A program made the position numbers and the translations under genes. 56,048 nucleotides of DNA from Pseudomonadota bacterium (lineage in GTDB: Bacteria; Pseudomonadota; Gammaproteobacteria; Burkholderiales; Burkholderiaceae_C), in NCBI GenBank assembly GCA_021805825.1, contig JAJZEC010000018.1, forward strand, positions 1-56,048, written 5' to 3'. Below, piece after piece: positions 41,295-46,066 of this stretch. Every line of letters begins with the position of its first letter. Position 1 is the stretch's first letter. The notes under the pieces were generated by a model. It did no database searches. It was not told the DNA's origin and worked only from the letters and a program-made list of their open reading frames with translations.

Positions 41295-42596
41295 TCAGCG
41301 CGCCTGCCCGGGGTGGAACACGCGATCCTGCAGGCGCTTGAAGCCGATCAGGCGCATCAGGTACTTCTCGTAGAGCGGTTCGGAGGTACCCTTGCGCATC
41401 TTGCGCAGGAAGTACTTCTCGAAGGCGATCTTTGCCAGGTGCACCCACCTGCCGGATCCGAACCAGTTGAGATCCCGCGGGGGGATCTGCGGCACCGCGG
41501 CGAAGGCGGCCCCGGTGGATCCGAAATCGGCCAGGCAGATGGCCTGCCAGGTTCCCTTGTGCGCCGGCGGCCGTCCCGCCAGTTCCTCGGCGATGTTGTG
41601 CACCACGGCCGACACCATCGACTCGATCATGAAGCCGGTCTTGGGCACCCCGCAGGCCACCGGGGTCGGGCCGACCGGGGGTATCGCGATGCAGACCCCG
41701 GCTGCGTAGATGTTGGAAAAGCGCGGGCTGCGCTGGTGCTCGTCGACCAGCACGAAGCCACGCGGGTTGCACAAGCCCTCGACCGCGGCCACGGCGTCGA
41801 CGCCGCGGAATGCCGGAAGCATCATCGCATGCCGGAACGGCAGCGCGTGCTGGCGAAACACCTGGCCCAGCGCGTCGAGTTCGTCGACATGCAGCGTGCC
41901 GGGCTCGATGCGGGTGGTGCGGGCGTTGGTGATCCAGCGGATATCGTGGTCGCGGAACTCATGTTCCATGATGCCCTTGGAGTCGCCGACGCCATCGAGA
42001 CCGAGGTGCCCTATGTAGGGCTCGGCGGTGACGAAGGTGATCGGCACCTTGCTGCGCAGCCGGCGCTTGCGCAGGGCCGTGTCGAGAATCATCGTGTACT
42101 CGTAGGCCGGCCCGAAGCAGCTCGCGCCCGGCAGCGCCCCGACCAGCACCGGCCCGGGCTGCGCGCACAGGCGCTGGAAGTCCTCGAAACACTGCAGCGC
42201 ATGGTCGGTGGTGCAGATCGACTGCGTGTACCCGGCGTGCGGGCCGGCGCCCTCGACCTCGTCGAAGGCCAGCTTCGGCCCGGTGGTGATGAGCAGGAAG
42301 TCGTAGCCCAGGCGCTCGCCACCCTCGACCTCGACAATGCCGGAGCGGGCGTCGATGGCCACCGCCGGTCGCCCGCGGAAGTCGATGTCCTTGCGCCGCA
42401 GCCAGGGCGCGATCGGCAGCACCACCTGCTCGCGCCTGCGCCAGCCCACCGCCACCCAGGGGTTGGAGGGCACGAACTGGAAATAGTCTCCGTGGTTGAC
42501 CACGGTGATGCGATGCTCCCGCGGCAGCTCGGCGCGCAAGGCGTAGGCCGCCGGCAGGCCGCCGAGGCCCGCCCCCAGGATGACGATGTGCGCCAT
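41295..42596 (-). CDS. sqr: Sulfide:quinone oxidoreductase (type I, Acidithiobacillus-like)
   Basis: 433 residues, FAD-dependent, peripheral at the inner membrane. It oxidises sulfide to sulfane sulfur or polysulfide and passes electrons to quinone. The FAD-binding start is IVILGAGLGGLPAAYALR. FQFVPSNPWVAVGW matches the A. ferrooxidans protein, and three redox cysteines align: C128 (SICTTDHA), C160 (GASCFGPAYEY) and C354 (CLADFGSTG). C-terminal amphipathic helices occur in the last 40 residues. ATG 42596 has GGAGGA upstream. It is divergent from the YeeE-like genes across a 264-base gap. Confidence 0.93.
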   Translation of the reverse strand: MAHIVILGAGLGGLPAAYALRAELPREHRITVVNHGDYFQFVPSNPWVAVGWRRREQVVLPIAPWLRRKDIDFRGRPAVAIDARSGIVEVEGGERLGYDFLLITTGPKLAFDEVEGAGPHAGYTQSICTTDHALQCFEDFQRLCAQPGPVLVGALPGASCFGPAYEYTMILDTALRKRRLRSKVPITFVTAEPYIGHLGLDGVGDSKGIMEHEFRDHDIRWITNARTTRIEPGTLHVDELDALGQVFRQHALPFRHAMMLPAFRGVDAVAAVEGLCNPRGFVLVDEHQRSPRFSNIYAAGVCIAIPPVGPTPVACGVPKTGFMIESMVSAVVHNIAEELAGRPPAHKGTWQAICLADFGSTGAAFAAVPQIPPRDLNWFGSGRWVHLAKIAFEKYFLRKMRKGTSEPLYEKYLMRLIGFKRLQDRVFHPGQAR

Positions 42597-42860
42597 GGTG
42601 TCTGTCCTCCGTTGCGCATGCGCCGGGCTCCCGACGCCCCGCGATCAATCCAGCATACGAAGGCGGGCGTGGCTTTCCGCGGGTCTCGCCGGCAGACCAT
42701 GCACAGGGTCTTGACCGGGCGCAACAGCCCGGTGCGCCACCATGCTCGTTGACCCGCATCTGATTTTCCCTAATACCCATACCAGCATGTTGCTTTCTGT
42801 ATCTATACTCCGCACACCATCCAGGCCGGCAGTCCCGCAGGCCCGCACGAGGAGATCGCG
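42597..42860. promoter_or_regulatory. Divergent control region between sqr and the YeeE operon
   Basis: 264 bases without a gene. The plus-strand part has TATACT at 42804-42809 (a -10-like box about 50 bases before TTG 42861) and no good -35 at the usual distance, so an activator or alternative sigma factor may be needed. The AT-rich stretch 42755-42815 includes CCCTAATACCC. No known sulfide-regulator binding site (for example a BigR or SqrR box) could be recognised. Confidence 0.4.
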
Positions 42861-43373
42861 TTGAGCAGCCATTCCCCGCGTCCGCTGTGGAATCCCTATG
42901 TCGCAGGGGCCGCGCTCGGCCTGGCCCTGCTCGCCACCTTCCTGATCACCGGCAATGGTTACGGCGTCACTGGAGCCACGACGCTGCTGACGGCCGCCGC
43001 GGCAGGCCGCGTGGCCTCCTCCACGGTGGCCGCCGGAAGCTATTTCCATGGACTGTTCGCCGCCGGACTGAACCACTGGATCGTCTGGGAGGTGCTGGGG
43101 CTGCTCGTCGGAGCCCTGCTCGCCAGCCTGCGCGCCGGCCGCTTCCACTGGCAACTCGACGGCCCGCGCCGCGCCGGGCATGCGCTGCGTTCCCTGCTCG
43201 CGCTGCTCGGCGGCGCAGCGGCCGGCTTCGGCGCCCGATTGTCCCTGGGCTGCACCAGCGGCATGGGGCTCTCGGGCTCGGCGACCCTGGCGGCCGCCGG
43301 CTTCCTGTTCCTGATCGGCTTCTTCATCGCCGGCGCGCTGTTCGGCCAGCTCACGAAGGGACTGTGGCGATGA
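42861..43373 (+). CDS. YeeE/YedE-family half-transporter, first subunit
   Basis: 170 residues, about five membrane segments (AALGLALLATFLIT, VWEVLGLLVGALLASL, LLALLGGAAAGFGA, FLFLIGFFIAGALFG). Its SLGCTSGMGLSG loop (Cys131) is the YeeE/YedE signature, linked to transport of thiosulfate or other sulfur compounds (TsuA, PmpAB). The start is TTG 42861 with GAGGAG seven bases upstream. The stop overlaps the next ATG as ATGA, so the two halves are coupled and probably form one heteromer. Confidence 0.82.
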   Translation: MSSHSPRPLWNPYVAGAALGLALLATFLITGNGYGVTGATTLLTAAAAGRVASSTVAAGSYFHGLFAAGLNHWIVWEVLGLLVGALLASLRAGRFHWQLDGPRRAGHALRSLLALLGGAAAGFGARLSLGCTSGMGLSGSATLAAAGFLFLIGFFIAGALFGQLTKGLWR

Positions 43374-43942
43374 CTTTTCCTCTTGGGTATCAGGGTCCTG
43401 TTTCTGGACTGTTACTGGGTATTGTATTTGGCTATGTCCTGGAGAACGCCGGCTTCGGCAGCGGCTGCAAGCTCACGGCGCAGTTGCGCTTCCAGGACTG
43501 GGCGGTGTTCCAGGTCATGTTCACGGCCATTGTCGTCGCCTCCGGAGGTCTGTACCTGCTGCAGGCGCTGGGCATGGTCGACATCGCCAGCGACCTCTTC
43601 GTGCCTTCGGTGTACCTCTGGGGCTCGAGCCTGGGCGGGGCGCTGATCGGCGTCGGCATGGCCGTGGGGGGCTACTGCCCCGGCACCTCGCTGGTCGCGC
43701 TGTGCTCGGGGCGCGTCGACGGCCTGGTGTTCGTCGCCGGCCTGATGCTCGGCACGCTGGGTTTCAATTCCGTCTATTCCGAGGTGCGCGACTGGGTCTG
43801 GAGGCAGAGCGGGCCCGACGCGCTGACCCTGCCGCAGCTTCTGCACCTGCCGGCCTGGGCGGTGTGGGGCCTGCTGCTGGGCGTGCTGGCCGCGGTAAGC
43901 TATCTGACGCGCGGCTCGGTTTCGTCGACGCAGTCGCCGTGA
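43370..43942 (+). CDS. YeeE/YedE-family half-transporter, second subunit
   Basis: 190 residues with five or six membrane segments. Cys33 lies in FGSGCKLTAQ, Cys103 in GGYCPGTSLVA and Cys112 in LCSGRVDG; the CPGTS loop is another YeeE/YedE signature. The last segment ends SYLTRGS. The first 24 codons are AT-rich and include TTA and GTA, unlike the rest of the gene. It probably pairs with the preceding subunit to import sulfur species for the cytoplasm. The Cys-repeat peptide follows after 81 bases. Confidence 0.82.
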   Translation: MTFPLGYQGPVSGLLLGIVFGYVLENAGFGSGCKLTAQLRFQDWAVFQVMFTAIVVASGGLYLLQALGMVDIASDLFVPSVYLWGSSLGGALIGVGMAVGGYCPGTSLVALCSGRVDGLVFVAGLMLGTLGFNSVYSEVRDWVWRQSGPDALTLPQLLHLPAWAVWGLLLGVLAAVSYLTRGSVSSTQSP

Positions 43943-44023
43943 TGCGCGATGACCGCAGCGCCGATACGCTGGCGCGCGCCGACGCGTCCGCCCATCCCCT
44001 CGAACCATGCAAGGAGTCCTTCG

Positions 44024-44275
44024 ATGAAGACATCACCCTCTTCGCGCCGCCTGAAGCTGTCGCAGGCGCTGCCCGTGCTCGCGCTGGCGGCAGCCACGGT
44101 GGCGCCGATGCCCCAGGCCGTGCGCAGCCTTTCGCCGACCGGGGTCGCCCAGGCCGCGGCGAACCCCTGCGCGCCATCCAACCCCTGCGCTCCGTCCAAG
44201 CCCTGCGCTCCGCAGGGCGGCAAGCACAAGGCGCGCAGCGGCAAGGCCGGCAACCCCTGCGCGCCATCGAAGTGA
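44024..44275 (+). CDS. Secreted NPCAP-repeat cysteine peptide
   Basis: 83 residues. A basic N-terminus and hydrophobic core (ALPVLALAAATVAPMP) form a Sec signal, with cleavage likely after VAQAA near residue 45. The mature part has three NPCAPS-type repeats at Cys49, 55 and 61, then a Lys/Arg linker and a last NPCAPSK with Cys79. AAGGAG precedes the ATG by 8 bases. Four cysteines at a regular spacing of 6 suggest metal binding, disulfides, or a sulfane-sulfur carrier. Its position in the sulfur operon favours the last, but this is inference. I know of no characterised homologue. Confidence 0.7.
   Translation: MKTSPSSRRLKLSQALPVLALAAATVAPMPQAVRSLSPTGVAQAAANPCAPSNPCAPSKPCAPQGGKHKARSGKAGNPCAPSK
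44162..44268 (+). repeat. 17-base direct repeats within the NPCAP gene
   Basis: AACCCCTGCGCGCCATC occurs exactly at 44162-44178 and 44252-44268. Shorter versions (CCCTGCGCTCCG) lie between. They encode the NPCAP repeats and may expand or contract by recombination. Confidence 0.8.
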
Positions 44276-44340
44276 TCGGCGGCGGGCCAGGCCTGGCCGC
44301 CGTCGGGCCCGCCCGATCGCCGCACCTCCGGTACCGGTCG

Positions 44341-45030
44341 ATGGGCACTCGTCTGCTCGTCCCCCGGGACGAACTGCTGCGGGCCTTGCGCGGCGCGCCG
44401 CGCCAACCCCTGCGGCGCGCCGCGGAGTCGACCCTGGCGCGACTGCAGTCCGATGCGCGCCGCGGCCGCGGCCTGCTGGCCGAGGTGCTGGGCCGCCAGC
44501 CGGCCTTCGTCGAGTGGCAGCACTACCCGCGCGGCGACGCCGTCGACCTGCACAGCGGCTATCGCTTCTACTACCACGCGCATGCGGCGCCGGGCCGCGC
44601 GCGCGGCGAGCACGGCCATTTCCACGTCTTCGCATCCACGCGCCCGACGCGCGACGGCGACAGCGGCCACGCGCACCTGTTCGGCCTGTCGGTCGATGCG
44701 CGCGGGCTGCCCATGCGGGTGTTCAGCACCAACGGCTGGGTCACCGGCGAGCAGTGGCACGACGCCGCATGGACGCTGCGTGCGCTGCGCCGGCTCGACC
44801 TCGCGCAGGCGCGGCCCGCGCGGGTCGCGCAATGGCTGCAGGACATGGCGCGACTGTTCGCGCCGCAGATCGAGGCCGTGGTGCGCCAGCGCGACCTGCG
44901 CATCGCCGAGCGCGCGCGCAGCGCGCCGCTGCAGCGGGTGCTCGAGGATCGGCGCACGCATATCGTCAGCCAGTGCGCGGTCGACCTGGAACGCCAGTTC
45001 GACTGCCTGCAGCAAGCGGCGACGCACTGA
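44341..45030 (+). CDS. His-rich DUF6969-like protein
   Basis: 229 residues, no signal peptide or membrane helix. The core holds several His pairs: WQHYPRGDAVDLHSGYRFYY, then HAHA, EHGHFHVFA, and GHAHLFGLSVDARGLPM. This pattern suggests a metal site or a cupin-like fold; I recall DUF6969 proteins with a YYYHAH..EHGHFH core but cannot verify it. WVTGEQWHDA follows. The N-terminus and the C-terminus are helical and Arg-rich. It lies 65 bases after the NPCAP gene and 46 before the rhodanese. Function unknown. Confidence 0.68.
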   Translation: MGTRLLVPRDELLRALRGAPRQPLRRAAESTLARLQSDARRGRGLLAEVLGRQPAFVEWQHYPRGDAVDLHSGYRFYYHAHAAPGRARGEHGHFHVFASTRPTRDGDSGHAHLFGLSVDARGLPMRVFSTNGWVTGEQWHDAAWTLRALRRLDLAQARPARVAQWLQDMARLFAPQIEAVVRQRDLRIAERARSAPLQRVLEDRRTHIVSQCAVDLERQFDCLQQAATH

Positions 45031-45076
45031 GCCCGCGGGCGCCGTGCCGACCCAGATTTTCAACCGGAGGAGACCC

Positions 45077-46066
45077 ATGAAGACCCTGTTTCGCTTGCAG
45101 CACCTGCTGGCCGCCGGCGCCCTCGCCGCCTGCACCCAGTTCGCCGCCGCGGCCGCGCTGCCCGGCCCCTTGGTGACCCCGCAATGGCTGCGGCAGCACC
45201 GCGCCGAGGTCACGGTGGTCGACATACGCGACGACATGGGCAGCCTGACCCAGGCCCCGCGCTATGCCGTCGACCCGAAGACCCGAGCGCGGCATCTGGT
45301 GCAGACCGGGGGCCACCTCGAGGGTGCGTTGTCGGTGGATTTCGGCAAGATCCGCAAGGACAAGATCGTCGACGGCAAGAAGATCGTCGCCCAACTGCCC
45401 ACTGCCGCCTACTTCACGCAGGTGATGGACTCGGCGGGGCTGGATCAGGGCAAGCCGGTGGTCATCGTCCCCACCGGGCAGAACGTGGATTCGATGGACA
45501 TGGCTGCGCGCTTGTACTTCCAGCTGCGCTACTTCGGCGAGCCGGAGGGTCAGGTGGCCATTCTCAACGGCGGGGTCAATGCCTGGCTGCAGGACGGCCT
45601 GCCGGTGAGCACCCAGCCCATCGTCGCGACGCGCGGCAACTGGAGCGCCGGCGCAACCGACGCGGGTCTGCTGGCCACCCTGGAGCAGGTCAAGCAGGGC
45701 CTGCGCAGCGGCTCGGATCAGTTCGTGGACGCGCGCCCGATCGCTCAATTCCTGGGCATCGTGGTCAAGCGCCCGGTGGATGCCGCCGGCGGCCACCTGC
45801 CGGGGGCGCGATCGCTGCCCACGGAGGCGATCGTCAAGCCGGTAGGTGCCGCCCATGTATTCATGAGCGCAGCCGACTACCGCAAGATCTACGCGGAATT
45901 CAACATCCAGCCCGACGCCGCGACCGTGACCTACTGCAACACCGGGCACCTGGCCTCGGGTGCCTGGTTCGTCGACCACGAGATCCTGCGCAACCCGAGA
46001 ACGCGGCTGTACACGGGCTCGATGACCGAGTGGACCCACCTGGGCAACCCCACGCGCGGGCTGTAA
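45077..46066 (+). CDS. Secreted two-domain rhodanese (thiosulfate sulfurtransferase)
   Basis: 329 residues. A signal peptide (LLAAGALAACTQFAAAAALP) sends it to the periplasm. Domain 1 (about 30-180) has VVDIRDDMG and ILNGGVNAWLQDGLP but no cysteine in its loop. Domain 2 (about 190-329) has VDARPIAQFLG, GGHLPGARSLPTE and the active loop YCNTGHLASGAW with Cys287. The usual CRxGxR loop is altered to CNTGHL. GGAGGAG lies just before the ATG. It should move sulfane sulfur between thiosulfate or persulfides and acceptors in the periplasm. A hairpin terminator follows. Confidence 0.85.
   Translation: MKTLFRLQHLLAAGALAACTQFAAAAALPGPLVTPQWLRQHRAEVTVVDIRDDMGSLTQAPRYAVDPKTRARHLVQTGGHLEGALSVDFGKIRKDKIVDGKKIVAQLPTAAYFTQVMDSAGLDQGKPVVIVPTGQNVDSMDMAARLYFQLRYFGEPEGQVAILNGGVNAWLQDGLPVSTQPIVATRGNWSAGATDAGLLATLEQVKQGLRSGSDQFVDARPIAQFLGIVVKRPVDAAGGHLPGARSLPTEAIVKPVGAAHVFMSAADYRKIYAEFNIQPDAATVTYCNTGHLASGAWFVDHEILRNPRTRLYTGSMTEWTHLGNPTRGL

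Follow-up and report, generated by a model that had tools for sequence, protein, structure and literature searches.

Two described systems come closest to the locus reported here. The bufferin/MNIO (PF05114) group of ribosomally synthesised and post-translationally modified peptides (RiPPs) has short exported precursors that combine repeated Cys motifs with a leader of the Sec type, and each precursor is encoded beside a dedicated protein that lacks a signal peptide. Some of these loci carry extracytoplasmic function (ECF) sigma genes, and some array proteins are long or fused (PMC12452194). PmpA and PmpB are half-YeeE sulfur importers that represent the C- and N-terminal halves, respectively, and are grouped here with SoxT and TsuA; the same source describes the means by which periplasmic sulfur enters the cytoplasm as unknown (PMC11582611). 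Features of both systems meet in contig JAJZEC010000018.1 of a Thiomonas-like Pseudomonadota bacterium, a stretch of 56,048 nucleotides that was analysed as a whole and is referred to as the window. Here the genes for an exported Cys-array peptide (the NPCAP peptide) and for a DUF6969 protein (PF22308) lie between two half-length YeeE genes and a rhodanese gene. Comparison across genomes suggests that DUF6969 proteins are generally paired with exported Cys arrays, which we regard as a strong result, and the two proteins of the window very probably form a functional unit. The array pairing is added to the PF22308 family by the present analysis, and our literature search on DUF6969 found no paper naming the family.

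The locus contains the following genes:

41295–42596, minus strand: sulfide:quinone reductase (SQR) gene sqr, 433 aa, divergent from the five-gene unit

42861–43373, plus strand: half-YeeE-1, C-terminal half, PmpA-like, 170 aa, TTG start, one Cys (131)

43370–43942, plus strand: half-YeeE-2, N-terminal half, PmpB-like, 190 aa, Cys 33, 103 and 112

44024–44275, plus strand: exported Cys-array peptide (NPCAP), 83 aa, 4 Cys

44341–45030, plus strand: DUF6969 protein (PF22308), 229 aa, 12 His, start not firm

45077–46066, plus strand: exported two-domain rhodanese, 329 aa

The NPCAP peptide (NPCAPSNPCAPSKPCAP...NPCAPSK) consists of a leader (approximately residues 1–46), assigned as Sec-type by rule and by eye, followed by an array (residues 47–83) of four NPCAP/KPCAP motifs. 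Throughout this study the terms secreted and exported refer to calls made from the N-terminal sequence by eye together with a home-made rule. For the peptide (P0001) there was no match in Pfam or NCBIfam, the two profile sets in which MNIO precursor families such as DUF2282 were sought. In 76 arrays from the window and the 80 loci described below, all 16 possible 9-mers coding for NPC are used among 406 units, and only 60 of 330 adjacent units have an identical 9-mer. As the codons of neighbouring units differ freely, the repeat is kept as protein and not as copied DNA.

The DUF6969 protein matches PF22308 over its full length (197.4 bits with a cut-off of 27, E = 2.6e-58, profile positions 2–201 of 201). 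The invariant columns among 57 sequences include Y78, H79, H81, E90, H91, G92, H93, F94, H95, H112, G122, N131, W133, R184, and D185, and H61, D66, and D69 are nearly invariant. When the most divergent members are included (19 sequences), H61, D66, D69, H79, H81, H93, H95, and H112 are still kept. In the AlphaFold2 model (mean pLDDT 95, pTM 0.92) the conserved His residues sit on or at the ends of strands E62–68, E75–79, E92–100, and E109–118, and may form one metal site. In a Foldseek search with this model no match reached E ≤ 0.001, the best values being 0.34 in PDB and 0.058 in BFVD, and a profile sequence search of PDB returned five matches with a best E of 0.49. The N-terminus has no evident signal peptide, and an encounter with the NPCAP peptide should therefore precede export.

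Two samples of the family were used for the comparison. A PF22308 search of 300 genomes from the same order, a sample not selected for arrays, gave 21 matches in 20 genomes, and exported peptides with Cys repeats were seen next to many of them in the surrounding 1.5 kb. A wider scan, for which an alignment of 12 rows served as query, detected at least 562 encoding stretches, of which the best-scoring 80 loci were kept with flanks of up to 10 kb; since these are best-scoring picks, they lean towards the window, include near relatives and are not independent. Arrays in the 80 loci were defined by three NPC-like motifs per segment with gaps of up to 20 residues. This pattern superseded an earlier regular expression with short gaps, which had matched 32 of the 80 loci. 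NPC-type arrays are found within 2 kb of DUF6969 at 53 of the 80 loci, 48 of them upstream and five downstream. The rate in the first 2 kb upstream is 32.6 loci per 100 kb compared to 0–1.1 per 100 kb farther out, where arrays were seen at two loci 2–5 kb upstream, at one locus 5–10 kb downstream, and at none in the remaining two bins. Control motifs with PC changed to CP, PW or PH gave 0, 0, and 1 loci, respectively. A generic screen for at least four Cys per 40 residues, which missed the Thiomonas type, was positive within 3 kb at 35 of the 80 loci.

The order sample was analysed with a rule for exported Cys-array open reading frames (ORFs) that does not name NPC; it was set after the generic screen and is looser. 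By this rule 17 of the 21 DUF6969 matches have such an ORF within 2.5 kb, with a background of three in 175 kb, two of which are real arrays. Two further arrays (G230 and G042) have motifs too variable for the rule and are clear by eye, giving an array beside DUF6969 in 19 of 21 matches, plus a remnant of DUF6969 beside arrays in G011. In G132 there is no array on the 7.7-kb contig that carries DUF6969, and pattern matches are present on other contigs. Across the order, NPCxxxNPC occurs in 14 of the 20 DUF6969 genomes (the match in G230 looks like chance) versus 24 of the 280 others (Fisher p = 5.7e-10). Two of these 24 DUF6969-negative genomes were opened: G037 has a real array, and the match in G147 is due to chance. 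G267, also DUF6969-negative, has six tandem NPCxxxNPC matches.

Adjacency in one operon alone proves little, and the two genes could be unrelated passengers of a sulfur operon. Against this speaks that the pair recurs outside sulfur loci, with changed order and strand, and that divergent clades have altered array motifs. Most arrays are located upstream on the same strand, but in L071 the array follows DUF6969 on the same strand, and in L053, L064, and L088 it lies downstream in antisense orientation, which argues against passive operon inheritance. DUF6969 subfamilies that lack NPC are paired with KCAPKCAPK, KCGAKCAPK or PCVKTKAGGLA arrays. In a DUF6969 tree of 97 proteins (one from the window, 80 from the wider scan and 16 from the order sample; L015, L135, L138, and L139 were omitted) the KCxxK-partnered proteins make up two starred clades that split first, as seen with midpoint rooting of a quick tree with long branches. 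The partner label changes 11 times on this tree compared to 29.5 times when shuffled. We therefore reject the passenger explanation, which seems hardly credible.

Our best explanation for the pair, to which we give a probability of roughly 45%, is as follows. The peptide would carry a Sec-type leader in front of a C-terminal array whose Cys motifs are nearly identical, and DUF6969 would stay in the cytoplasm and act on the preprotein prior to export; it would most likely be a maturation enzyme that depends on metal and uses the conserved His/Asp cluster. The exported array would then serve as a periplasmic thiol module. In the window it would most likely take sulfane sulfur from SQR and the exported rhodanese, and either hand it to the half-YeeE (PmpAB-type) importer or buffer it. 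The pairing is established by comparison; modification, metal, and sulfur loading are proposals. We give the role of DUF6969 as maturase of the array nearly an even chance, and the sulfane-sulfur role of the array in the window operon is put forward tentatively. In a broader version DUF6969 would be the first family of post-translational modification enzymes with a new fold; these would act on exported Cys arrays through a multi-His/Asp metal site, independently of MNIO, would also treat arrays fused to cytochromes or rhodaneses, and would make periplasmic persulfide or metal carriers. We find this doubtful.

As the pair recurs across many bacteria, it may represent a novel means to mature or serve cysteine-rich peptides, and PF22308, for which a single genome collection holds at least 562 encoding stretches, gains a specific testable partner. 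If DUF6969 does modify the arrays, an enzyme class and a fold would be added to RiPP-like chemistry, tied to sulfur oxidation. Otherwise, an explanation is still required for a widespread exported Cys-array module that is fused to several redox proteins and for which our literature search found no name.

Maturation before export could involve recognition of the leader. In 16 Thiomonas-type peptides (L024 was dropped as a near-copy) the leader core KLS...PMPQA has a mean identity of 0.87, compared to 0.75 for the whole leader and 0.78 for the array part. For the adjacent rhodanese (12 rows, as against 16 for the arrays) the values are 0.56 for the signal and 0.79 for the mature part. A Polynucleobacter set of 10 rows, comprising array peptides only, gave 0.77 for the leader and 0.79 for the mature part. 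The conservation of the core, which was picked post hoc from the alignment, would fit a recognised leader.

Several observations weigh against the maturation model. Over its full length the leader (0.75) is no better kept than the array part (0.78), the core having been chosen after viewing the alignment, and leaders also look conserved by eye in f77, a family without detectable DUF6969, so leader conservation is not specific. DUF6969 is without enzyme homology, known cofactor or known product. The Cys-array ORF rule also took two shadow ORFs near DUF6969 (L142 and L146). No NPC array is present within 2 kb at 27 of the 80 loci; the genomes of 24 of these (all except L068, L074, and L097) were searched, and NPCNPC was found in 12, with arrays verified in 10. 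Just three (L067, L076, and L087) of the 30 loci with an upstream YeeE gene lie outside the DUF6969 clade of the window. In G011 only a 48-codon C-terminal remnant of DUF6969 (L135, 645–788, minus strand) accompanies the arrays, whose genes are intact and lie approximately 1.3 kb away; this 7.2-kb contig lacks the N-terminal DUF6969 motifs, although an assembly error is possible.

The phylum sample points the same way. NPCNPC was found in 52 of 329 genomes, 41 of them from f77, and none of these 41 is among the 11 PF22308 genomes of a same-sized draw. Among those 11 it occurs in two: the array in G339 is real, while G000 matches at two places, and the one that was opened has no array. The f77 and f74 loci that were opened hold true arrays, either alone or fused to a SoxA/TsdA-like cytochrome (by eye), and no MNIO match was found in the 12 array genomes checked (11 from f77 and one from f74). 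NPC arrays can therefore exist without DUF6969 and without MNIO, and the idea that they are exclusive to DUF6969 genomes is false at the phylum level. The arrays observed in f77, f97, and f74 (L193 and L197–L206) are of the NPCSMK/NPCAMK type; they include array-cytochrome fusions, often have a multihaem cytochrome as neighbour, and occur in genomes with no DUF6969 match. Arsenosugar-type radical SAM and methyltransferase genes were seen by eye near some of these arrays.

Arrays that lack a detectable DUF6969 in one family, or sit beside a remnant in G011, suggest that modification is not always needed. They would also fit a DUF6969 that is a cytosolic chaperone, a metal or sulfur donor, or a sensor for the preprotein, with the thiols kept reduced until export, and the lack of any solved structure matching the fold at the threshold given above is in line with this. 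The near-invariant His/Asp set, however, looks catalytic or metal-binding rather than holdase-like, and we consider such a role unlikely.

In anatomy the pair resembles the bufferin/MNIO system, the nearest known kind. In both, the precursor is short and exported, with repeated Cys motifs and a leader; its dedicated partner lacks a signal peptide, ECF sigma genes occur at some loci, and array proteins may be long or fused (PMC12452194). One criterion for bufferins is an oxidative Cys modification of the thiooxazole type. Unlike in bufferin clusters, MNIO (PF05114) and DUF2063 are absent from the Pfam matches of the window operon proteins. The window genome has one MNIO match, which is on contig C45, while the window is C63. 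An MNIO match is absent from 12 of the 20 DUF6969 genomes, and the pair therefore does not depend on MNIO. Homology of DUF6969 to MNIO or its partner was rejected with hhalign probabilities of 1.4% (MNIO) and 0.3% (DUF2063), a weak test as the templates were single sequences. With a like anatomy, no MNIO or DUF2063 in the operon and no profile similarity, the DUF6969/array system works like bufferin/MNIO and is not a member of it.

The likeness raises the possibility of a bufferin-like metal or metalloid buffer, in which the array, once matured by DUF6969, is exported and binds copper, mercury or arsenic through its thiols; the presence of the sulfur genes would reflect the exposure of sulfur oxidisers to these metals in ore waters. 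The closest relatives are metagenome bins that, judging from their isolate codes, presumably come from mine-water samples. In G037, which has no DUF6969 match, the gene for an NPCAAK peptide immediately precedes a bufferin-type cluster that includes MNIO (PF05114, 5.4e-103) and DUF2063 (L141, 5331–7417), which suggests that the same array type can serve with MNIO. The array genes of G115 are also near a bufferin-type cluster: at L132 (G115:C16) DUF6969, an array peptide and an array-cytochrome lie within 10 kb of it, and MerR/Mer-like genes were seen nearby by eye. ECF sigma genes are found near DUF6969 at L143, L145, L146, L147, and L148 (by eye; Pfam for L143 only), as in bufferin clusters (PMC12452194). 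Yet the recurrent neighbours in the clade of the window are sulfur genes, and the fusion partners of the arrays include rhodanese and SoxA/TsdA domains, and we rate a metal buffer as rather improbable.

The sulfur context was examined across the 80 loci. A same-strand YeeE gene lies no more than 3 kb upstream at 30 loci, a rhodanese gene within 1.5 kb downstream at 29, both at 27, and a divergent SQR gene within 5 kb at 14. In the starred DUF6969 clade that includes relatives of Thiomonas, Polynucleobacter, Tibeticola, and Polaromonas we find 27 of the 30 YeeE loci, and the remaining three belong to another clade. The sulfur context is thus genuine but lineage-bound: the sulfur module is a conserved unit of one lineage and not a definition of the pair. 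In the other large clade, the recurrent neighbours (counted over 81 loci, window included) are an exported FGE-like protein (24), DUF2336 (16), TRAP transporter parts (11 and 10), and a small rhodanese (8). Outside the sulfur clade the pair also sits with P460 cytochromes or ECF sigma genes. What is constant is therefore the array-DUF6969 pair and not the sulfur genes.

The sequence-only reading of the window would have been refuted if the genes of both uncharacterised proteins never recurred near sulfur genes in relatives; the 80 loci show that they do recur together and beside such genes. Its view of a single sulfur system draws support from the YeeE, rhodanese, and SQR neighbours and from the fusions, but is not supported in general, given the other neighbours outside the clade of the window and the NPC arrays without detectable DUF6969 in one family. 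Its suggestion of a periplasmic metal or sulfur carrier with a cytoplasmic partner is a fair guess. The observation itself is confirmed and its interpretation partly supported.

Several arrays are part of larger proteins. By Pfam, an array shares one chain with a SoxA/TsdA cytochrome domain (L083), Cytochrome P460 (L059, 8731–9804), a rhodanese (L076), or a BLH-type phosphatase domain (L087). The array can therefore be regarded as a portable module of exported proteins. Long NPCNPCAAK arrays are found on P460-type proteins of Alphaproteobacteria (L150–L166, P460 by eye) as well as at L059, and some of these proteins are not near DUF6969. At L095 (4111–5292) a P460-like protein carries CGACGAK repeats in place of NPC, and its gene is divergent from those of the FGE-like protein and DUF6969. 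A second DUF6969 of G115 (L133, G115:C2, 999–7741) comes with an NPCAAK/PCPLD array and adjoins multihaem cytochrome genes that by eye resemble an extracellular electron-transfer cluster.

In the window the six genes were confirmed at base level, with SQR divergent from a five-gene unit as first proposed. The SQR aligns with PDB 3sz0 over residues 2–428 (E = 5.3e-165), which is full-length similarity to a solved SQR; we take this chain to be the SQR of Acidithiobacillus ferrooxidans, and Cys128, Cys160, and Cys354 of the window protein are presumably the catalytic Cys residues. The two YeeE genes match opposite halves of PF04143 (Sulf_transp; YeeE-1, profile 177–308 of 310, E = 2.2e-18; YeeE-2, 4–149 of 310, E = 2.7e-15), like PmpA and PmpB (PMC11582611). 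They differ from these in sharing a unit with an array peptide, DUF6969, and a rhodanese; "Cys-rich" is absent from the main text of PMC11582611. The rhodanese has two PF00581 stretches and a single candidate catalytic Cys, the active-site-type Cys287 in CNTGHLAS of the second domain.

The YeeE genes overlap by ATGA, the start at 43370 preceding the end at 43373. The following gaps, expected to be 46–81 bases, measure 81 (YeeE-2/peptide), 65 (peptide/DUF6969), and 46 bases (DUF6969/rhodanese). Good ribosome sites had also been expected: a purine-rich site precedes YeeE-1, the NPCAP peptide, and the rhodanese, but none is visible in front of the chosen DUF6969 ATG (44341). An alternative in-frame GTG start at 44272 overlaps the stop of the NPCAP peptide. 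The DUF6969 frame is also open across the array gene (43702–44340; a 442-codon ORF), a GC-rich shadow frame that may mislead start calling. Between 42400 and 46300 we found no sigma-70-like promoter and one terminator-like site, at 43287 inside YeeE-1, where 1.4 are expected by chance. A single transcript of the five genes is therefore plausible from the sequence.

An anti-phage role was rejected, as the window proteins P0007 and P0001 have no PADLOC match. The formylglycine-generating enzyme (FGE)-like protein near DUF6969 looks exported and has a conserved GGSWDDxGCGICRPAARHSRP motif (L082, 7280–8158, and 23 further loci); its Cys spacing differs from that of classical FGE. The substrate motif of FGE is CxPxR. 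The idea of arrays as FGE substrates was set aside, as the array motif is without Arg and the FGE-like neighbour itself looks exported. Finally, a ppnP-type nucleoside phosphorylase gene (PF06865, 40949–41269) converges on sqr in the window.

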